DNA of 64,000 nt from Umbelopsis ramanniana AG (lineage: Eukaryota; Mucoromycota; Umbelopsidomycetes; Umbelopsidales; Umbelopsidaceae), in assembly GCF_025399195.1 (NCBI RefSeq), contig NW_026252144.1:1-64000 (forward strand), given 5' to 3'. Below the pieces are notes generated by a model, which did not search any database, was not told the origin of the DNA, and saw only the letters and a list, made by a program, of their open reading frames with translations. The position numbers were made by a program, and so were the translations under genes. This document shows, piece after piece, positions 4,649 to 19,127 of the stretch; the first letter of the stretch is position 1, and every line of letters starts with the position of its first letter.

Positions 4649-6562
4649 TCACTCAGTTCTGGACACACTCTTTTGACGTTTATAGTGCTTTGCAACTTCA
4701 ACTTGCACACCCTTTTCTTCCAACATTTTTTGCAGCAAGTCGACAGAAGGTACAGCTGGGGGCGTTGACCAAATATCTTTGATCTTCGAACCATCGGGTC
4801 CAGCAAGCACCGAGCAAACATAAACAATTGTTTGGCCGGCTTCAACAGTTCCCATCAATTGCGGCACAAACGTACGGGGGAACATTACACTGGTATTTCC
4901 ATGCGGCGCAATGACTCTTGCTGCGCGCTTTGTTACAGAGGAATCCATAATGCCGCTGAAGTCTCCGAGCTTGCATTCGACCCAAGCTGAGCTCGCATCC
5001 GAATGAGTGATATCTGCCTTAAAATCTACACGTGGTGCAGCAAATCCACCTTCGACAGTTTCAAGTGTTCTTGATGATGTAATACGATGGACACGCGTAT
5101 GCCATGGGCCATTGGGGATCAGCCATGTTTCAACCTTTACATCTGGCCAAGGATTCCATAAAGAAAAGAGGATATCTCCAATCAAATACGCGTCTACGCA
5201 GTGTTCTCTCACACGATAATGTTTTCCATCATCACTGAACGCAATCATGTTATCAAACGCACCGGTTTGAAATCCTAAGCTGTCGCTTTCAACACTAAAG
5301 CCGTACCGAGACGAGTAAGCAAATTTCTTGTATTTCTCTGGGACGCATCGCATTTGCTGTCCAGTTTCTGGTCCCGCTGTCAGGAGTACTGTATGCCCAG
5401 GCTGATGTGAGAAAACCATTCCAGGAATCGAAAACGAAGCTACATCTGGTCGGCTCTCCACTGGAAGTTCTTTTGCTGTCCAAAAAGGGTGGTCGGCAGG
5501 GAGTTTAAGTGCTGTAAATGCTTTCATGGCCCACCATGGCGATCCGGCGGAGTTGTATCGTTCTGCCATAAATTGATTCGGATAAGCGTATCCGACGGTA
5601 AGAAGACCATCTTTGTTCCCTGAAATTGGCTGCGTGGACCACCATCTTAGGTTTCTCAAGTACAGTCCTTTCAGAACTCCCCATGGCAAAGCCTCTTCGT
5701 TAGCTAGGGCCAATGCTCCCCAGAAGCCGGCAACTGCATGCCGATATATCAAGCTGCGCCCATACGGCACATTTTCGCCGGTATCCGCAAACCAGTGTTG
5801 GAAGTGTTGTGCAAACTTTCGTGCTCGATCCCGAAATCTCTGGCAGCGCTCTTTGTCCTGTGGCCGGTACACAGCGTATATCAGTCCGTAAAAGTGCATA
5901 GCAAACGGATTGTAGTAATCGATACGCCTGGTGTCACCTTCATCGTCGCCATCACGGTACCATCCATCACCTATGTACAGGCTTTCCAAATCCTGCAAGT
6001 ATTCCTCTGTCATAGATTCATCTACCTTGATTCCAACTTTGTCCAGGCCAAGATCGACCATAACGCGGAAGAATTTATGGTTGTTTCCATGGAAATTAGT
6101 ATTGCGACCCTGGATTAAGTACTTGGCGACATTGTTTTTGGTTTCTTCGTCCAATGGATCCCAGATATGCTCCGGTACCAGTAACATCGCATAACCAAGA
6201 GCGGCTATCTCAACTTGTCGCTGATCCATTGAAGAAACCTCCCCCCAGTATTCGGGATGCATGGGGTCAGTGCCATTCTTTAACCCCTCCCGGTACCGCT
6301 CCCAATGGGCGAAACTTGCCCCTCCTGCTACCATGGGAGCAATACCAAACAGTGGCCTGGCAAACCCTTCTAAATCAGAAGAAGCTCGATCGAATGATGC
6401 CCCTGACGCGTCAAGTTGCACTCGAGCGTTGCCTTCAGAGAAAGTAGGTAATAATGGTTCGAACATCTCGTTGACAGCTTGTATGACATCGTCCCTTGTC
6501 TGAAACTTGTTTCCAGCCGATGGGTTAAATTGCGACTGTGGGATAACACTTGAATCAATCAT
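4649..6562 (-). CDS. DUF2264 (GH154-like) protein, putative beta-glucuronidase
   Basis: Intronless gene for 637 residues. Family hallmarks in order are LEGFARPLFGIAPM (64-77), NNHKFFRVMVDLGL (160-173), YIGDGWYRDG (196-205), DYYNPFAMHFYG (215-226) and PYGRSLIYRHAVAGFWGALA (266-285). These match the DUF2264 (PF10022) pattern: an alpha/alpha-barrel N-terminal half and a beta-rich C-terminal half. As I recall, some DUF2264 members are classed in CAZy GH154, where beta-glucuronidase activity was reported. Activity here is inferred. The N-terminus has no signal peptide, so a cytosolic enzyme is expected. The gene is transcribed away from the MFS transporter across a 685-bp shared upstream region, and it sits with GH88 and lyase genes. 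That context supports release of saturated glucuronic acid from oligo-uronides. The lack of introns is unlike most genes further right, which fits transfer. Confidence 0.88.
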   Translation of the reverse strand: MIDSSVIPQSQFNPSAGNKFQTRDDVIQAVNEMFEPLLPTFSEGNARVQLDASGASFDRASSDLEGFARPLFGIAPMVAGGASFAHWERYREGLKNGTDPMHPEYWGEVSSMDQRQVEIAALGYAMLLVPEHIWDPLDEETKNNVAKYLIQGRNTNFHGNNHKFFRVMVDLGLDKVGIKVDESMTEEYLQDLESLYIGDGWYRDGDDEGDTRRIDYYNPFAMHFYGLIYAVYRPQDKERCQRFRDRARKFAQHFQHWFADTGENVPYGRSLIYRHAVAGFWGALALANEEALPWGVLKGLYLRNLRWWSTQPISGNKDGLLTVGYAYPNQFMAERYNSAGSPWWAMKAFTALKLPADHPFWTAKELPVESRPDVASFSIPGMVFSHQPGHTVLLTAGPETGQQMRCVPEKYKKFAYSSRYGFSVESDSLGFQTGAFDNMIAFSDDGKHYRVREHCVDAYLIGDILFSLWNPWPDVKVETWLIPNGPWHTRVHRITSSRTLETVEGGFAAPRVDFKADITHSDASSAWVECKLGDFSGIMDSSVTKRAARVIAPHGNTSVMFPRTFVPQLMGTVEAGQTIVYVCSVLAGPDGSKIKDIWSTPPAVPSVDLLQKMLEEKGVQVEVAKHYKRQKSVSRTE

Positions 6563-7247
6563 AGTTGGTAGGATTTTCTTATGACAAAGTGTGAGTTTTC
6601 TATACAGCTGTAGCTTTATGAATATAAGTATTTTGCACTCAGATTTGTAGAAGACTGTTCAACCGAGAGACGGATCAGATTCTAAATCCTAATTGTGAGG
6701 GACGATGGCTCGGGTAAAAGTTTCGTCAAGTCCCTTTTCAGTACATTTACCAATTTAGACAATTACCTGGTTTCTGTAATATAATACCAACACAGAGCAG
6801 GCTTAGGAAACATAAAACCACGGCCACTATGAATCTCTGGTACGTTTTTTTCATAAGTTATATTTTCTTGCATAGTACCTGACGATGCAGCCCCTAATTT
6901 TTTTGACAAATCATTGGTGCGATCCTAAGGACCCGTTGGCAAATCACAAGACCACGTCCAATTTTGTACTATATCCTTCATTTGGTTAAATTAGGCCGCA
7001 AAAAAACGTTTGAAGCTTGATACATCGCACAAAGTTCACAAGGACACTTCAACACAACTTCATTTTAGGTTCTTCCCCGTGGGGAAACCGTTTCATCAGT
7101 GTAGCTCTCAAGCTCTACGGTCATTTTCTTCTACGCCTTCAACGAAACGGTATAAATTGGTTTGCCACTTTGCAAGTTGTTTCCTTACTCAAGCATTTTT
7201 GGCAGAATCATTCATATCACAAACAGATCTAGTCTTTCTCCATCAAA
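6563..7247. promoter_or_regulatory. Shared divergent upstream region of the DUF2264 and MFS genes
   Basis: 685 bp lie between the two start codons. On the plus side there is a TATAAA at 7151, about 95 bp before the MFS start. A perfect dyad with arms TTCCCC/GGGGAA around GT lies at 7073-7086, about 160 bp upstream of the MFS start. It contains GTGGGG, which fits the Mig1/CreA-type carbon-repressor consensus (SYGGRG). AAGGACCCGTTGG at 6927-6939 weakly resembles TTAGGACCTCCGTTAGG at 10702-10718 in the other divergent promoter of the cluster. Regulatory roles are inference. Confidence 0.4.
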
Positions 7248-8810
7248 ATGAAGACACAGCCCACAAAGGAATTGTATGGTTCAAGTGTAGATGCTACTAT
7301 GTTGAGGGAGGTAGTTCCGAAGAGGACCAAAATGTGGTGGCATTATCCGGCTCTGCGCACTCTCAACCTGCTACTGATCTGCGCTATAGTAACAGATGTA
7401 ACTAACGGCTATGATGGATCTATGTTAAACGGACTACAAATCATTGAAAGTTGGCAAGAGTACTTTAACAAACCCACTGGTTCTATTCTTGGCGTTATCA
7501 GCAACGGAACTCGATTTGGACAAGTAGGGTCTCTCTTTGTTTCTGCAACACTTATCCAAAGATTCGGACGACGAAAACCTATCGCCATTGGCTCACTCAT
7601 TCTACTGGTTGGAGTGATTTTGCAAACCGCAGCGGTGAATACGGCAATGTTTGTTGTTGGACGTGTATTCATTGGTTTTGGTAACGGTATTCAAGCGACG
7701 GCATGTCCTATTCTTGTGGCTGAGCTGGCTTATCCAACCCAACGTACGCAAATCACGGGCATTATGAACAGTACTGGATCATTGGGGTCACTGTTGGCTG
7801 CGACAATCACATTTGGTACATCTTATCTAGGCGCATCTACCTGGAGCTGGCGCCTACCTAGTTTGCTACAGGCAATGTCTTCTATTCTCCAATTGATCAT
7901 GAGTTTCTACGTACCGGAATCGCCACGATGGCTGGTATACAACAATCGCAGAGAGGAAGCATGGCAAATTTTGGCTAAATATCATGCTGAAGGAGATGAA
8001 GACTCGGAATTGCTTAAATTTGAGATGGAAGAAATTGATGCCGCAATCGCACGGGAGAAGTCTCAGTCGCTTACTTCTTGGATGGAATGGTTCCGCACAC
8101 CGGGTAATCGACATAGATTCTTCATTGTGCTCACCATAGGGTTTTTGATCCAATGGTGTGGGAATGCTTTGATATCGTACTATCTCGGAATTCTTCTCAA
8201 AACAATCGGTATCACAGATCAAAAAAGTCAACTTATCATCAACGTGGGCATCAATATCAACGGCATGGTTTGGGGAAATTTCTTTTCCTTGTGGATTGAA
8301 CGTGTTGGCCGCCGTCCTATGTTCTTCATGGGCTTATCAGGCATGTTCTGTGCTTTCCTCATTCTTACAGTTGTGACGGGCATCAATCAGAGCACAGGTT
8401 TCCACAACACATCAGCTTCACAAGCTTCACTTGCCATGATCTTCGTATTTGGAGCCTTTTACAAGATGGCTGGACCGGTATGCCCCAGTTACGTTGCGGA
8501 AGTTAGCCCTTATGATTTGCGCGCTAAGGCTTTCGTCATAAATGGATTCGCTGACGCTGCTGCTAATGTGTTCAACGGTTTTACTAATCCAATCGGAATG
8601 GTCGCACTCGGGTGGAAGTACTATATCGTTTGGTGTTGTGTACTGGTCAGTAATTTCTTTCTTGTGTACTTCTTCTATCCGGAAACCAAAGGCCTTTCTC
8701 TGGAAGAAGTAGCCATTAAGTTCGATAAAGATCAAGCCGACATTTTTGAAAGCGAACCTGGTCAAGCGGAAGCTGTTGATGCTCCACTGGAAGTTGGAGA
8801 AGAAAAATGA
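7248..8810 (+). CDS. MFS sugar/H+ symporter of the uronide cluster
   Basis: Intronless gene for 520 residues with about 12 membrane segments. Sugar-porter (PF00083) signatures are NGYDGS (53-58), FGRRKP (106-111), GRVFIGFGNG (138-147), ELAYPTQR (159-166), PESPRWL (223-229), ERVGRRP (351-357) and PETKGLSLEE (478-487). The overall type resembles fungal lactose-permease/hexose transporters rather than bacterial ones. Its partner enzymes have no secretion signals, so I infer that it imports oligo- or mono-uronides, or the neutral sugar of a mixed polymer, for intracellular breakdown. The substrate is not readable from sequence. The start is the first ATG of the hydrophilic N-terminus, 95 bp after a TATAAA. 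The gene converges with the GH88 gene across a 246-bp AT-rich gap that contains AATAAA-like signals. Confidence 0.92.
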   Translation: MKTQPTKELYGSSVDATMLREVVPKRTKMWWHYPALRTLNLLLICAIVTDVTNGYDGSMLNGLQIIESWQEYFNKPTGSILGVISNGTRFGQVGSLFVSATLIQRFGRRKPIAIGSLILLVGVILQTAAVNTAMFVVGRVFIGFGNGIQATACPILVAELAYPTQRTQITGIMNSTGSLGSLLAATITFGTSYLGASTWSWRLPSLLQAMSSILQLIMSFYVPESPRWLVYNNRREEAWQILAKYHAEGDEDSELLKFEMEEIDAAIAREKSQSLTSWMEWFRTPGNRHRFFIVLTIGFLIQWCGNALISYYLGILLKTIGITDQKSQLIINVGININGMVWGNFFSLWIERVGRRPMFFMGLSGMFCAFLILTVVTGINQSTGFHNTSASQASLAMIFVFGAFYKMAGPVCPSYVAEVSPYDLRAKAFVINGFADAAANVFNGFTNPIGMVALGWKYYIVWCCVLVSNFFLVYFFYPETKGLSLEEVAIKFDKDQADIFESEPGQAEAVDAPLEVGEEK

Positions 8811-9056
8811 TGTAGTTGTTGTATCCATATCTACCCATACGAAATGTAGTCCATATTTTAAAGCGGTTTATTTCTTCACCTCAAATATAATGCAATGTTA
8901 CAATAAACATGTACCGCAGTCATTACGAGAAAATACTCCAATTAATGCATGCCTTTTCCTCCTCTCTTTTTTTATACAAAGTATCAAAAGGTCTCCTCCT
9001 CTTTTCAGTTTTTTTTTAAAACAATTTGAATATATTTATTAAAAGCTCTTGTCATC

Positions 9057-10280
9057 CTAATTGATAAGTCCCATGTCTAGTAGTCTATTAACTGTCTCAA
9101 TAAAATAGTAGTCGGCATAAACCAAACCTGTATCAGCAATTCTGAGACCTGGCATGGCATCAGCATTATTGTTGACAGTGCTATGTTCCAGGATAGTATC
9201 TCCATTTCCAGAGGAAGCAGTAATTGCACGAGACAAAATTTTGGAGATGTGTGGTAAATAGTTCAAGGTTGGGTCTAACTGCTGTTGTAAAAGCATACCA
9301 GAGCAAGCAATCATAGCAGCAGACACATCCCAATATGTCGGTCGCTCTACATCAAAGTCCCAGTATACAGTACCATCCTCTGCAAGTTTAGAGAGAAACA
9401 TTTCCGTGAACTTCTTGGAAGCCTCTAGGAACTTGGGATCCTTAGTGTACTTGTAAGTAACAGCATAACCGTATAGCGCCCATGCTTGACCACGACTCCA
9501 GGTACTGTCATCGGCATAGCCTTGGTGAGTCATTTTACCTGTGACTTCTCCAGTTTGTGTATCATACACTACAAGGTGATAGCTCGAGTTATCAGGTCTG
9601 AAGTGATTCTTTAGAGTTGTCTCTGCATGAGTGGTGGCAATGTCATAGAACTCTTTATTGCCACTCTTCTCCGCAGCGTAGTAAAGAAGCTCCAAATTCA
9701 TCATGTTATCAATGATGACAAGGAAGTGCTTGTTCATGTCGGTGTATGAGTATGATTTGCTGACCTTCTCATTCCAGGATCGGATGGCTTTTGTCTTAGA
9801 GCTATATCGAGTTGTCAATGACTTTGCAGCCTGAATGATGATATCTAAGGCCGCTTCATTGCCAGTGAGCTCGTAATCACGTTGAAATGCAGGCATAATC
9901 AGGAATCCAATATCGTGAGTATTGGTATTAAATTGTTGCTCAACAAGACCAGATTCCCAGTGACGACCAGCCTTCAGTAACTGCTCACTGCTTACAGTAG
10001 TTGATTCGGCGTCACCGTTTTTCTTCAGCTGTCTCTCATATAAAGCCCATATGCTACCAGGAAAGAAACCTGAAGTCCACTTGAATGCCGGCACGTACTC
10101 GTACTTGTCAGTGCCTGGAGTAGTGTAGTGCGGAAACTCGGTTGGAGGATCTTCCTTGTTCAAGGCTGGAGCTGCAACCTTCCAGATAGTGTCATAAATC
10201 TTAGGTGATAGTAACCCTTTAATGTCCACGTGGTCTTGTCCGCTGGAGGAGGTGCGGCCTGTTTCGTTTGATTGTGTCAT
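9057..10280 (-). CDS. GH88 unsaturated glucuronyl hydrolase
   Basis: Intronless gene for 407 residues, close to the usual ~370-400 of the family (Glyco_hydro_88). Visible landmarks are KWTSGFFPGSIWALYE (67-82), THDIGF with Asp123, IDNMMNLELLYYA with Asp191 (the two acidic positions matching the catalytic pair of Bacillus UGL), and GYADDSTWSRGQAWALYG (254-271). GH88 enzymes hydrate the 4,5-double bond of the unsaturated uronic acid left at the non-reducing end by a polysaccharide lyase. The monomer then falls apart to a keto-acid. There is no signal peptide, so it should act in the cytosol. The gene is divergent from the lyase gene across 517 bp, which makes the lyase its natural upstream partner. 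Members are common in bacteria and patchy in fungi, where they are often in clusters. Confidence 0.95.
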   Translation of the reverse strand: MTQSNETGRTSSSGQDHVDIKGLLSPKIYDTIWKVAAPALNKEDPPTEFPHYTTPGTDKYEYVPAFKWTSGFFPGSIWALYERQLKKNGDAESTTVSSEQLLKAGRHWESGLVEQQFNTNTHDIGFLIMPAFQRDYELTGNEAALDIIIQAAKSLTTRYSSKTKAIRSWNEKVSKSYSYTDMNKHFLVIIDNMMNLELLYYAAEKSGNKEFYDIATTHAETTLKNHFRPDNSSYHLVVYDTQTGEVTGKMTHQGYADDSTWSRGQAWALYGYAVTYKYTKDPKFLEASKKFTEMFLSKLAEDGTVYWDFDVERPTYWDVSAAMIACSGMLLQQQLDPTLNYLPHISKILSRAITASSGNGDTILEHSTVNNNADAMPGLRIADTGLVYADYYFIETVNRLLDMGLIN

Positions 10281-10797
10281 GATTTCTTGTATGCGCAGTG
10301 TATGAAAATTTGACTAGATTTTCCCAAAGACAATAGTTTTAAAGAAATTGGGTATAAGATAAAGCGAGAAGCAGTAACAACTTTTCTCACACATTTATGT
10401 TTACCCCAGGCGACCGACTTCGCCGTCAATTACCCCGATCGTCATTTTGCAAACTCTATAATTCGTCCTCTGGTCACTGCAGTTGTACAGCACCATACTA
10501 GGAAGAAAACCCTTAGAGGGCTGGAGCTGGAGTGTTTACAGGGGATTTGGTAGCTTCCCTATTGTGGAGAATGTACTCGATAAAGGTGCTTATATTTATC
10601 ACCAGCCTCTATTAACCCAATATATGGTTTTTATGTTCCAAGTATTGAGTTTACAAAGCTTGCGCTCTGAAAAATCTCCTTATTTGTAGGTTTTCCTTTT
10701 CTTAGGACCTCCGTTAGGTGAAAACTTTACCCATGGATCGAACACATTAGCTATTTATACGGTAATAACATCAAAATAGCCACATTAAACACGAACG
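10281..10797. promoter_or_regulatory. Shared divergent upstream region of the GH88 and lyase genes
   Basis: 517 bp lie between start codons. ACCCCAG at about 10405 reads CTGGGG on the other strand, a Mig1/CreA-like site, and a CCCCG follows near 10435. A TATTTATAC element at about 10750 lies some 45 bp before the lyase start. TTAGGACCTCCGTTAGG (10702-10718) is the weak partner of the motif in the DUF2264/MFS promoter. A small frame at 10483-10689 has no support as a gene. Confidence 0.35.
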
Positions 10798-11976
10798 ATG
10801 AAAAAATCACTTATTACGTGGTCGGAATCTAATCTCACAGCCGCTAAAGCTCGGTTGACAAACCCACTTCTTGCCCCGGCCTACAAATCATTGATCGCAG
10901 CTGCTGACCAAGCACTGGACTGCAGCCCATTTTCTGTAACTCATAAGACTACATTGCCACCAAGTGGTGACAAGCACGACTATTTGAGCATCGCCCCATA
11001 CTGGTGGCCAGATGCTTCAAAACTTGACGGCTTGCCATACATCAATCGAGACGGTGAATTCAATCCTGCATCAAGAGATTCCAGTACAGATAGCATACGC
11101 TTCAAGGAGTTTACTTCTGTACTAGAGTCATTGTCCCTAGCATATTATTTCAGTGATGATCGAAAGTATGCTGATAAAGCCGTCGCTCTGCTCAATGCGT
11201 GGTTCTTAGATGCAGAAACTCTCATGCATCCACATCTGGAGTACGGCCAAGGTATTGCAGGCGTTACAACTGGCCGAGGAATTGGTTTGATTGACACTCG
11301 AAATATAACAACAATAATCGATTCCATCATAATTTTGGACCCCGTCCTAACTGAGAAGCAGGTACGAGGACTAGAGGATTGGTTTGAACAGTTTTTACAA
11401 TGGCTATGTACTAGCAAGAATGGCTTGGAGGAAAGGAATCAAATGAACAACCACGGCACATTCTACGATTCACAAGTGGCATGCATTGCCATCTTCCTTG
11501 GTAAAGACGACTTAGCAAAGGACAGAATACGCGACACCTTGACCAACCGCTTACCAGAACAGATCGAATCGGACGGCAGGCAGCCAAAGGAACTTCATCG
11601 AACGCGCTCCTTCCATTATAGTGCATTCAACCTCACTGCATATGCTCGAGTGGCCAGGTATGGTCAATTGCTTGGTTTGGATTTATGGCATGCCGACCCA
11701 TCCGGTACTGGTAGCCCCATGCTGAAAACTGCTATTACATGGCTGGCTTCGTTTATTCCAAACCCGAATTCGTGGCCGTACCCAGAGCTTACAGGTGTCC
11801 AGGTTCTTCCGTTGGCTATGGATGGCGCCTTACCTGTATTTTTACAGGCATTATTAGAGTTTGGCACGGATCAAGATCTGTCGACCGCCCTTGGAATTGC
11901 TGCAAAAGAAGTACCTGAAGCTCGTGACTGGCTCATATGGCCCATGACAGAGGCTGACTTGACTGCATTAGCTTAA
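10798..11976 (+). CDS. Alginate_lyase-fold polyuronate lyase (PL38-like, possible glucuronan lyase)
   Basis: Intronless gene for 392 residues. HDYLSIAPYWWPD (60-72) and GLPYINRDGEFNP (78-90) are typical of PF05426 Alginate_lyase proteins. NNHGTFYD (217-224) holds the conserved Asn-Asn-His and Tyr expected at the active site, and ELHRTRSFHYSAFNL (265-279) supplies the Arg/His/Tyr-rich strand. This pattern resembles CAZy PL38, whose characterised member I recall as a glucuronan lyase, more than classical PL5. The specificity call is tentative. The N-terminus (MKKSLITWSESNL) is not a signal peptide, so the enzyme probably cuts imported oligo-uronides by beta-elimination in the cytosol. The double-bonded ends it makes are GH88 substrates, and GH88 is its divergent neighbour. 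Confidence 0.85.
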   Translation: MKKSLITWSESNLTAAKARLTNPLLAPAYKSLIAAADQALDCSPFSVTHKTTLPPSGDKHDYLSIAPYWWPDASKLDGLPYINRDGEFNPASRDSSTDSIRFKEFTSVLESLSLAYYFSDDRKYADKAVALLNAWFLDAETLMHPHLEYGQGIAGVTTGRGIGLIDTRNITTIIDSIIILDPVLTEKQVRGLEDWFEQFLQWLCTSKNGLEERNQMNNHGTFYDSQVACIAIFLGKDDLAKDRIRDTLTNRLPEQIESDGRQPKELHRTRSFHYSAFNLTAYARVARYGQLLGLDLWHADPSGTGSPMLKTAITWLASFIPNPNSWPYPELTGVQVLPLAMDGALPVFLQALLEFGTDQDLSTALGIAAKEVPEARDWLIWPMTEADLTALA

Positions 11977-17068: not shown

Positions 17069-19127
17069 ATGGTATTTGACGATGCCAACGACTGCTCTTC
17101 CGATCAGTCATCTGTTGATAGCGTTGGTCAGTCTCGCAAGCGAAGAAGGAATCAAAGCTGGGTTATCGCAAATCATCATGCAGAAGTAGACGGCGTGACC
17201 TCCAAGTTGCTCCTTCGGTGCCTACATTGTCTGAAAACCGTCAGCTACACTAATTATGTGAGTAGCCCAATGATTTCACATTTGCTTCGCCAACATGCTA
17301 TAACTGAGAATAGTCCGGCGCGCGCTGAGAATATGGATTTTGCAAATCCTCGCATGAACTCTTATTTTCAACGCACACAAAGCAGTCTTTTTTCATCCGA
17401 AGTGTGGAAGAGGCTAACTGTTGACATGATTATCGAATGCAAACTTCCGTTAAATTTCGCACAAAAGCCAAGTTTCAAAAGGTTACTAAACTACGCTCGA
17501 CATAGGACTCTTCCCGAGATCGAAATGTTAAACCACCCCTGCACTGCTGTTTACGACGGTATCCTCCGCCGCTTTGACCTGAAGGTTGAAGAAGTTAAAA
17601 GGATACTTAAGGCACAGGATTGGATAAGCTATACTACGGATGTTTGGACCAGCCCATGGGAAGTTTCCTACCTCGGAATAACCGCTCATTGGATAGATTG
17701 TGATTGGGAAGAGAAAAATGTGCTGATAGCATTCAGTCCAATACATGGATCACATACAGGTAACCTTTCATGGCCCAATTGCTTCTTTGTGATGTATGCT
17801 TTTGCATATTAAAGAACTTTATCACAGGCGACAATCTAGCGACCATTTTTGTCGATGCACTTCAAAATTTGGACTTACTTGGCTCTGTCTTTGCCATTAC
17901 GACAGATAATGCTAGTCACATGCTCAGAATGGTTGAGAAGGTTGAGAAGCTTATTCGACAAACCGACCATTCTCATGCTCAAGCTTGTGTTCATAGGATG
18001 TTTTGTATTGGACATGTATTGAATCTTGCAGTTCAAAAAATTTTGAAAGCTGGGACAGGCATTGCTCCCGCTGAAAATATGATAGATATGAGCATAGACA
18101 GTTCAAGAGGAAAACCAGTCGACAAGCTCAGGCAAAGTCTCGTATGGATCAGATCTAGCCATCAAAACATAGAGCGCTTCAGACGTTGTTGTCTATCATT
18201 GCGCCTATCTGAAATCGGCCTTGACGTGGACGTCAACACTCGATTGGAGAGCACATGTGCAATGATACAAATGGCACTAGAGTGTTCGCCAGCCTTAAAT
18301 CAGATGATGGCAGATGGACCTGAACATATGAGGCTTTCTGAGACAGATTGGGAGTTTCTCAAGATAGCTTCGCTTATACTCGCACCATTTGATCAGTTCA
18401 GAAAATTGTACTGGCGATATCAATACGCAACTATCAATATGGCAACACTATTATATGTGAGCTTGAAAAATAGTCTCTCCGCCATACAAGATGATTTATG
18501 TTAGTAAGGTCACAGTTAGTGTTGATTCTGGCGATTTAAAGCATCTAATAGTTTATTCGCACAGCAAATCAAAATAATCCTCGAAATGAAGGCTTAACAA
18601 TCGGTGTGACTAAAGCTATTGCCAAATTGGACGAGTACTTTAGCGAAACCTGGAATGGCACAATACTGGCTACAGCGGTAGCTTTGGATCCTCGTTCCAA
18701 GTTTGTATTCTGGGAAAATGCGGATCTCCAACGGCAAGATATTGATGCTGGCAAAGAGACAGTGCGTCTTGCTTGGCAGGATTTTCGGCCATCTGTCACG
18801 CCTAGTCCTACGGACTCACAGAAGTTGTTTCGACAAGACGTCGTTCACGAAGACGAATTTACGTATTATATTACAGGAAAAATATCGCCAGCAACGGTCG
18901 ATTTTGATATGCTACAATATTGGAAGGTGAGACAGGCAGTATATCCAAACCTCAGTAAAATGGCGAGGAAACATTTGGCTGTACGTGCGAGCTCAACCCC
19001 AAGCCGACGTTCCTTTTGGCGAGCTCCATTATTTGTCTCAAATCTGCGAAATGAGTTCGAGCCCACTTTATTTAATAGGCGTATATTACTGCGGTCAATG
19101 GAAAGATTAATACATGAATACATGTAG
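17069..19127 (+). CDS. hAT-family transposase, frame intact but catalytic Glu replaced
   Basis: Three exons (17069-17759, 17828-18499, 18565-19127) join without stops to 641 residues. Intron 2 uses a weak GTTAGT donor. The N-terminal part has a BED-type zinc finger (C51, C54, H71, H76). The RNase-H-like core shows TTDVWTS (Asp191) and ITTDNASHM (Asp257), the first two acidic residues of the hAT DDE triad. The C-terminal dimerisation region (from ISPATVDFDMLQYW on) is present. The expected SSxPSERxFS motif with the third acidic residue reads SSTPSRRSFW, so Arg sits at about 602. A broken relative at 32430-32895 still encodes SAPSERCFS. Either the copy is freshly dead with an intact frame, or it is kept for DNA binding. 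No terminal inverted repeats or 8-bp target duplications were seen. Confidence 0.88.

Follow-up and report, generated by a model that had tools for sequence, protein, structure and literature searches.

The PUL25 locus of Bacteroides caccae comprises PL35, GH88, the BcGDH dehydratase and GH109 (PMC12269599). The same source reports that two GH154 members, BcGDH and BT_3677, are beta-D-glucuronate 4,5-dehydratases, and that one GH154 enzyme dehydrates ends that are then removed by GH88; BcGDH showed no glycosidase activity when tested, and the active-site architecture for hydrolysis is described as absent. In fungi, TrGL of Trichoderma is described as an extracellular glucuronan lyase (PMC7601620).

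Here we describe four intronless open reading frames at 4649-11976 of an Umbelopsis contig, encoding a DUF2264 protein, a sugar porter, a GH88 protein and a PF05426/PL38-type lyase, within a window of 64,000 nucleotides (the whole stretch of DNA analysed). Similar to PUL25 as reported (PMC12269599), the locus combines a lyase, a putative beta-GlcA dehydratase and GH88 in what may be an exo-cycle, and the DUF2264 and GH88-family enzymes of the two systems are homologous. In contrast to the window, PUL25 is bacterial, its lyase is a PL35, and BcGDH has no second domain and carries Trp178 where the window protein has His. TrGL, like the window lyase as proposed here, is a fungal enzyme that cuts beta-1,4-glucuronan through elimination, but it is secreted, and the source describes no cluster for it (PMC7601620).

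Two further types of bacterial loci are comparable. A single bacterial scan for DUF2264 confirmed 508 loci, and the best 80, whose titles are all alphaproteobacterial, were compared. In 7 of these 80, DUF2264 stands with GH88, genes for an ABC importer and a lyase of the heparinase II/III type. These seven, a Roseibium locus (L099) and six others, share with the window an importer, a lyase, GH88 and a DUF2264 protein at 49-51% identity; they differ in importing through an ABC system and not an MFS porter, in a lyase of an unrelated family, and in being bacterial and of putative function. At 73 of the 80 loci GH88 was not found but a 2-hydroxyacid dehydrogenase gene is present, so the DUF2264 family need not always feed GH88; neighbouring genes may be cut off, since 14 of the 80 loci span less than 21 kb. 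A Hymenobacter plasmid locus carries TonB/SusD-type uptake genes, a PF05426 lyase, a GH2-like frame (assigned by eye), a second PF05426 gene and GH88. Like the window it pairs a PL38-type lyase with GH88, but no DUF2264 gene was found in its 19 kb and its lyase has a signal-like start.

Organization and linkage of the locus

The features of the locus are as follows:

4649..6562, minus strand: DUF2264 + DUF2264_C protein (formerly GH154), 637 aa; Pfam 429 + 158 bits
6563..7247, no strand: intergenic region of the divergent DUF2264/porter pair, presumed shared promoter, 685 bp; from gene starts
7248..8810, plus strand: MFS sugar porter, proposed importer of short uronides, 520 aa; TIGR00879, Sugar_tr
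9057..10280, minus strand: GH88, proposed unsaturated glucuronyl hydrolase, 407 aa; Pfam, phmmer to 3wiw
10281..10797, no strand: intergenic region of the divergent GH88/lyase pair, presumed shared promoter, 517 bp; from gene starts
10798..11976, plus strand: PF05426/PL38-type polysaccharide lyase, 392 aa; Pfam, BoPL38 residues kept, no signal-like N-terminus

All four proteins score above curated Pfam cut-offs, and the four-gene make-up in two divergent pairs, as claimed in the first-pass annotation, is borne out by the coordinates and Pfam matches; the porter and GH88 genes are convergent. The closest proteins among the matches listed, at 91-96% identity, are those of Umbelopsis sp. AD052, and by this identity the DNA is that of an Umbelopsis. 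Contamination was rejected as the source of the cluster, because its GC lies within the range of the window, its GC3 fits and near-identical proteins occur in other Umbelopsis genomes.

A genome search identified two DUF2264 genes, each with GH88 and sugar porter genes next to it. The linkage of DUF2264, GH88 and porter exceeds chance: the probability that under random placement each of the two DUF2264 genes lies 8 kb or less from a PF07470 gene is about 4e-6, a rough value that leaves gene density aside and assumes three PF07470 genes (window, C120 and C10), a lower bound because the family search listed C10 and C120 alone and missed the window's own gene. The second cluster (C120/C87) is a lyase-free core of a Zn2Cys6/Fungal_trans regulator, DUF2264, porter and GH88. 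Its porter is the best match of the window porter in its own genome after itself (484 bits, vs 292 for the next), and by this wide margin the dehydratase-porter-GH88 trio looks like a real unit.

Linkage in other fungi was deduced from equal-size contigs, organism names and locus tags. By this measure DUF2264 and GH88 share a contig in five of the six named fungi with both among the matches listed: Umbelopsis sp. AD052, PMI_123, Bifiguratus adelaidae (two loci), Rasamsonia emersonii and Talaromyces proteolyticus. PMI_123 and Bifiguratus have further GH88 matches on other contigs, and in Sugiyamaella lignohabitans the two genes lie on separate contigs. The conserved synteny on which the first-pass annotation was to be checked is supported, save for the lyase of one strain: the trio recurs within the genome, DUF2264 and GH88 stay together in five of six fungi, and the lyase shares their contig in AD052 and PMI_123. 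The exception is Umbelopsis sp. WA50703, with GH88 on a contig of 1,673,886 and a partial lyase on another of 12,588. No lyase was seen for Rasamsonia or Talaromyces among the matches listed. We propose that the trio may be an old core, two members of which, DUF2264 and GH88, also occur together in Bifiguratus and some Ascomycota.

A shared promoter motif was rejected, since k-mers common to the four intergenic regions did not exceed resampled controls. In an uncontrolled listing of CGG/CCG spacings, none occurs in all four regions; CGG-N9-CGG is present in three of the four, and CGG-N7-CCG and CGG-N19-CCG are confined to the two C120 regions. None of 46 Zn_clus matches places a Zn2Cys6 regulator on the window's contig, and one lies in the C120 cluster.

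Predicted functions of the four proteins

The DUF2264 protein matches DUF2264 (429 bits, cut-off 25) and DUF2264_C (158 bits, cut-off 27), and its best solved relatives are structures of beta-D-glucuronate dehydratase (9o4u/9nwf, E about 1e-24). Nine of the ten active-site residues mutated in BcGDH are kept, including the proposed catalytic Y229, R285 and Y289 (window Y217, R269 and Y273), which are identical in all 122 aligned sequences (window, C120 copy and 120 listed relatives). The complete BcGDH active site is not present, as W178 is replaced by H162. The W178A variant of BcGDH had no measurable activity, on what its authors call a poor substrate (PMC12269599). This position holds 63 His, 57 Trp, 1 Gln and 1 Ile among the 122 sequences, with His in most fungal relatives, so W178 is no defining residue of the DUF2264 family; we do not claim the window protein as a strict member of the characterized dehydratase subgroup.

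The first-pass annotation let GH154 act on saturated beta-glucuronides beside the lyase route, a view that needs correction now that the family is reported as dehydratase (PMC12269599). Because its GH154 relatives are so described, the DUF2264 protein most likely makes the substrate of GH88, as a cytosolic beta-D-glucuronate 4,5-dehydratase. That it is instead a beta-glucuronidase hydrolysing saturated ends in parallel to lyase and GH88 we regard as improbable: the solved relative 8oi4, deposited as a beta-galactosidase, speaks for hydrolysis, but the two studied members are dehydratases, BcGDH has neither hydrolase activity nor the architecture for it (PMC12269599), and the residues proposed for dehydration are kept in the window protein.

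The Glyco_hydro_88 score of the GH88 protein (33.7 bits, cut-off 26.6) is weak for the profile, and phmmer relates the protein to the solved GH88 enzyme 3wiw at E 8.5e-57. In alignment with chain 2zzr its D123 and D191 fall on D114 and D174, which we take to be the catalytic Asp pair of GH88. We propose that it is an unsaturated glucuronyl hydrolase acting on 4,5-unsaturated ends. The porter matches TIGR00879 (258.3 bits, cut-off 237.8) and Sugar_tr (284 bits). Import of short uronides is its proposed role; what speaks against this is that glucose transporters are its closest solved relatives and that eukaryotic sugar porters usually carry mono- to short oligosaccharides.

The lyase scores 264 bits against Alginate_lyase PF05426 (cut-off 22). 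Its PL38 label rests on nearness to 3nfv (E 3e-80) and BoPL38 (8bdq, E 1e-53); TrGL presumably belongs to a different lyase family. D108, Q173, H243, R292 and Y298 of BoPL38 are all kept (window D85, Q151, H219, R268 and Y274), Y298 and H243 being its reported catalytic residues (PMC13169297). The protein is nearest to bacterial lyases and, among the named fungi in the matches listed, Umbelopsis alone has it. We propose that it is an addition seen in Umbelopsis, probably of bacterial origin, that would suit the locus to polyuronides. Recent transfer was rejected on composition, since its GC3 (0.44) lies amid those of six other genes of the genome (0.37-0.50) and gives no sign of recent arrival.

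Judged by hydropathy and not by a signal-peptide predictor, no signal-like hydrophobic N-terminus was found in the DUF2264 protein, GH88 or the lyase; such a start is present in three bacterial relatives of the lyase and in four further PF05426 genes of the genome. This supports the cytosolic location previously claimed for the three enzymes.

Proposed pathway and substrate

The best explanation of the cluster, and a reasonably likely one, is in our view a pathway that salvages short beta-linked glucuronides in the cytosol. The porter would import short uronides, and the lyase, to judge from its family and kept catalytic residues, would beta-eliminate them, so that the new non-reducing end carries a 4,5-unsaturated uronate. 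Remaining saturated ends would be brought into the same form through dehydration by the DUF2264 protein, as suggested by two characterized members from bacteria and by an active site that is mostly kept. By the chemistry of its family, GH88 would hydrate the unsaturated residue and free it as 4-deoxy-5-keto-uronate, exposing the next saturated residue, so that dehydratase and GH88 could strip the chain stepwise. As lyase and dehydratase would both feed GH88, no beta-glucuronidase would be needed. Umbelopsis thus probably has a set for importing short glucuronic-acid chains and degrading them intracellularly, with elimination, dehydration and hydration taking the place of ordinary hydrolysis; such chemistry is reported from bacteria. 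For the steps beyond, genome searches found no KduI (search controls matched in 6 of 14) and no PF01081 (KDPG) aldolase (8 of 14). The nearest solved relatives of the two PF00701 genes are mitochondrial 4-hydroxy-2-oxoglutarate aldolase and dihydrodipicolinate synthase; neither gene can therefore be named a KDG aldolase, and this assignment was rejected.

The slime of Mucorales is described as essentially beta-1,4-GlcA, with tri-, penta- and hexa-uronides in the culture filtrate, and the GlcA of mucoran as alpha-linked to mannose (PMC6433966). Because of that linkage mucoran is a poor fit, and the beta-1,4-glucuronans of Mucoromycota fit best. We tentatively suggest that the substrate may be beta-1,4-glucuronan oligomers shed from the wall and slime of the fungus itself or of a relative. 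Plant glucuronides, namely terminal beta-GlcA on side chains of gums or arabinogalactan protein, would also suit the lyase-free trio at the second locus, as well as Rasamsonia and Talaromyces, where DUF2264 and GH88 occur and no lyase stands among the matches listed; BT_3677 is reported for beta-1,6-linked ends (PMC12269599). We find such a plant substrate unlikely, as the family of the window lyase cuts polyuronides and would be of little use on a single terminal GlcA, and as equal-size contigs in AD052 and PMI_123 suggest that lyase and trio belong together there.

A substrate of alginate or another beta-1,4-mannuronate oligomer is suggested by the names of the closest solved lyases, which are alginate lyases, and by a Vibrio relative near KdgM porin, KdgR and KduD, though a glucuronate isomerase is near too. 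To our knowledge, however, exolyase breakdown of alginate needs neither GH88 nor a glucuronate dehydratase. BoPL38 is reported active on mannuronate and guluronate (PMC13169297, PMC11381880), but Umbelopsis isolates are described from soil (PMC7928374), and we judge a mannuronate substrate very improbable.

Descriptions of GlcA polymers in Mucoromycota walls go back to the 1960s, and the cluster offers candidate genes for their import and breakdown in a soil fungus. The account of uronide oligomers in culture filtrates names no genes for their further use (PMC6433966). The cluster would also extend to fungi what was found in bacteria in 2025, namely that 'GH154' is a dehydratase; in at least one paper on fungi the family still figures as a wall glycoside hydrolase (PMC10055881). 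In a wider reading, which we offer as speculative and rather doubtful, Umbelopsis and related Mucoromycota would reuse beta-1,4-glucuronan from their own wall and slime by way of a eukaryotic, beta-glucuronidase-free cycle of elimination, dehydration and hydration that runs wholly in the cytosol; a fungal dehydratase subclade with His for Trp would be tuned to this cycle, and some fungus-eating Ascomycota would keep the same core to feed on such walls. With two loci to compare, one with a lyase and one without, and with the Trp-to-His change, the choice of substrate can be tested directly.

The cluster and its counterpart on C120

Four intronless open reading frames make up the cluster at 4649-11976, and their coordinates match those of the first-pass annotation exactly:

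4649-6562, minus strand, DUF2264 protein
7248-8810, plus strand, sugar porter
9057-10280, minus strand, GH88 protein
10798-11976, plus strand, PF05426/PL38-type lyase

They form two divergent pairs (DUF2264/porter and GH88/lyase), as described there, and the family named for each protein is borne out by profile matches above the curated cut-offs. The closest named homologues are from Umbelopsis sp. AD052, with identities of 91% (lyase), 96% (DUF2264) and 94% (GH88). The cluster is real, apparently conserved and catabolic. Promoter k-mers showed no excess over controls. Further along the window, broken frames at 17069-19127 resemble, by eye, a BED zinc-finger transposase of the hAT type.

A search of the genome (G000; 22.8 Mb, 123 contigs) identified two DUF2264 genes, in the window and on contig C120 (loci L013, L014, L023, L024). 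On C120 a 651-residue Zn2Cys6/Fungal_trans regulator is followed by DUF2264, a sugar porter and GH88. The GH88 gene extends past the contig end and continues on C87, whose opening 446 bases are identical to the closing 446 of C120, so that an assembly break falls inside the gene. Within the 9.9 kb covered on C87 the larger frames after GH88 are, by eye, acetyltransferase-, MFS- and sulfatase-like, and the profile search gave no PF05426 match on either contig (L024 and L111 also checked). The two copies are 51% identical for DUF2264, 46% for the porter and 52-61%, varying by part, for GH88. The window porter has 56 matching stretches in the genome, counting itself; the best of the others is the C120 porter with 484 bits, ahead of a runner-up at 292. 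Both DUF2264 genes lie within 8 kb of a gene matching PF07470, the GH88-type profile, for which random placement gives a rough p of ~4e-6 with 2 DUF2264 and 3 PF07470 genes, the latter a lower bound, as the family search returned those on C10 and C120 and missed the window's own.

Catalytic residues and origin of the lyase

The solved relatives of the window DUF2264 protein are just 9o4u and 9nwf, the beta-D-glucuronate dehydratase of Bacteroides caccae (BcGDH), and 8oi4. According to its description, this GH154 member has no glycosidase activity; by dehydration it introduces 4,5-unsaturation into beta-GlcA at a saturated non-reducing end, which is thereby primed for GH88; BT_3677, the GH154 founder, dehydrates too, and none of ten active-site mutants of BcGDH was active, with a poor substrate as caveat (PMC12269599). 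By residue mapping, the window protein retains nine of the ten BcGDH active-site residues, W178 being replaced by H162. In an alignment of 122 sequences (the window and C120 copies and the best 120 of 2,646 matches), this position is His in 63, Trp in 57, and Gln and Ile in one each. His occurs in Umbelopsis, Bifiguratus, Hyphodiscus, Rasamsonia, Acrodontium, Trichoderma, Escovopsis, Talaromyces and Penicillium, Ile in Zarea, and Trp in Sugiyamaella and in every named bacterium among the matches listed. The two Umbelopsis copies accordingly belong to two parts of the tree with different active sites.

The window GH88 finds its solved counterparts among unsaturated glucuronyl hydrolases (3wiw, E 8.5e-57) and retains the Asp pair (D123, D191). 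The founding member of PL38 is reportedly a glucuronan lyase. The window lyase matches 3nfv (E 3e-80) and the characterised BoPL38 (E 1e-53), and retains D108, Q173, H243, R292 and Y298 of the latter. BoPL38 is described as multi-specific (PMC11381880), with H5 abstraction by Y298 and H243 (PMC13169297). The reading of the cluster's chemistry that fits best is one of elimination, dehydration and hydration. Of candidates for acting next on the 4-deoxy-5-keto-uronate, neither KduI nor PF01081 was found in the genome. Separately, aconitase-family, zinc alcohol dehydrogenase-like (by eye) and DHDPS-family genes adjoin at G000:C38:199000-209000 (L112), with a Zn2Cys6 match ~9 kb from the group.

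In a tree of 68 sequences, ten Umbelopsis-like lyases form one clade (support 0.99), joined by P0013 (0.97; by eye without a signal-like start), a Vibrio plasmid protein (0.82) and then further bacterial or unnamed proteins; the paralogues from C85 and C1 of this genome, both in the tree, are distant. Among the best 120 of 1,238 matches, every named source other than Umbelopsis is bacterial. Together with the tree position, this indicates that the lyase was probably acquired from bacteria long ago; its GC3 fits the host. The carbohydrate-enzyme section of a study of Mucoromycotina names GH88 and a bacterial-type PL12, and the term PL38 is absent from its main text (PMC7928374).

Linkage in fungi and bacteria

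Linkage in other fungi was deduced from equal contig sizes and locus tags in the protein tables (best 120 matches per search, longest contig per match). The synteny in relatives on which the first-pass annotation made its reading depend appears to hold for DUF2264 and GH88 in five of the six named fungi showing both genes among the matches listed: Umbelopsis sp. AD052 (45,964), PMI_123 (578,348), Bifiguratus adelaidae, twice (10,555, tags 05441/05439; 26,759, tags 04980/04983), Rasamsonia emersonii (130,547, tags 8554/8556) and Talaromyces proteolyticus (1,568,710). It fails in Sugiyamaella lignohabitans, where the contigs differ. The lyase appears linked as well in AD052 and PMI_123, and a lyase fragment and DUF2264 are seemingly joined on a 31,065-base contig (P0010, P0124); against lyase linkage, Umbelopsis sp. 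WA50703 has a partial lyase on a 12,588 contig but its GH88 on a 1,673,886 contig. The tag gaps leave space for one or two intervening genes, compatible with a porter as in the window. PMI_123 and Bifiguratus have additional GH88 matches on other contigs. Two GH88 proteins of WA50703 (P0243, P0247) have tags three apart on equal-size contigs, and one of them looks, by eye, altered in its middle part.

Among bacteria, we scanned the best 80 of 508 confirmed DUF2264 loci (L026-L105), all alphaproteobacterial by title; 14 of the 80 fall short of 21 kb, which may have hidden some neighbours. Seven carry GH88, a heparinase II/III-type lyase and an ABC importer beside DUF2264, a logic like that of the window built from other parts. 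In the remaining 73 GH88 was not found, and all 73 have a D-isomer-specific 2-hydroxyacid dehydrogenase gene (heparinase-type lyase in 4, related ABC permeases in 42-45). GH88 is therefore not the sole habitual partner of DUF2264, and a second, GH88-free use of the dehydratase family is likely. In Asticcacaulis a PF05426 lyase is accompanied by GH2 and an MFS porter; the Hymenobacter lyase has as neighbours GH88, another PF05426 and a frame that resembles GH2 by eye. Neither these loci nor that of Vibrio yielded a DUF2264 match.

Enzyme location and candidate substrates

The cytosolic location proposed for the three enzymes fits their hydropathy: none has a hydrophobic N-terminus (best ten-residue values 0.41, 0.47 and 0.63), whereas three bacterial lyase relatives do (2.2-2.7). 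No C-terminal peroxisomal signal was seen in them by eye. In Ganoderma a GH154 protein is given as cytoplasmic, and GH154 is among upregulated glycoside hydrolases tied to wall degradation (PMC10055881).

PF05426 matches 18 stretches of the genome, which we group into about nine loci, some eight of them outside the window (C1, C85, C9, C13, C111, C10; L015, L017-L022) and several split as by introns; the two on C111 are ~3 kb apart. Judged by hydropathy of the presumed first exon, four of six such genes have a signal-like start (C85 3.4, C10 3.6, C111 2.7 and 2.0); the C9 gene carries its hydrophobic stretch more internally, and the C1 gene lacks one. These genes would be candidate secreted depolymerases supplying oligomers. 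At G000:C10:3500-8650 (L015) the signal-like gene lies ~2.6 kb from a PF07470 gene (327 bits), perhaps GH105-like. In Mucorales an 'alginate lyase' gene adjoins the sex locus (PMC7928374).

Mucorales slime is described as essentially beta-1,4-linked GlcA, mucoric acid as >90% GlcA and mucoran as containing alpha-GlcA-1,3-Man, and culture filtrates contain tri-, penta- and hexa-uronides (PMC6433966). For Umbelopsis, a wall fucose content of up to 25% is given, with a composition that departs from the mucoran ratio (PMC10481521). Compared with mucoran, beta-1,4-glucuronan would be the better fit for a beta-specific dehydratase with a PL38-type lyase. Plant arabinogalactan side chains are a fair alternative, above all at the C120 locus with its lyase-free core. 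The holders of DUF2264 include Trichoderma, Escovopsis, Zarea and Hyphodiscus, and those of GH88 Clonostachys and Cladobotryum, all fungus-associated; Rasamsonia, Talaromyces and Penicillium, which also hold the core, are not.

As far as our literature searches reached, no fungal cluster of exactly these four genes is in print, in agreement with the first-pass annotation, and no paper using the term 'DUF2264' was found. The logic of the cluster is already known from bacteria; what is new is a variant of that logic in a fungus.
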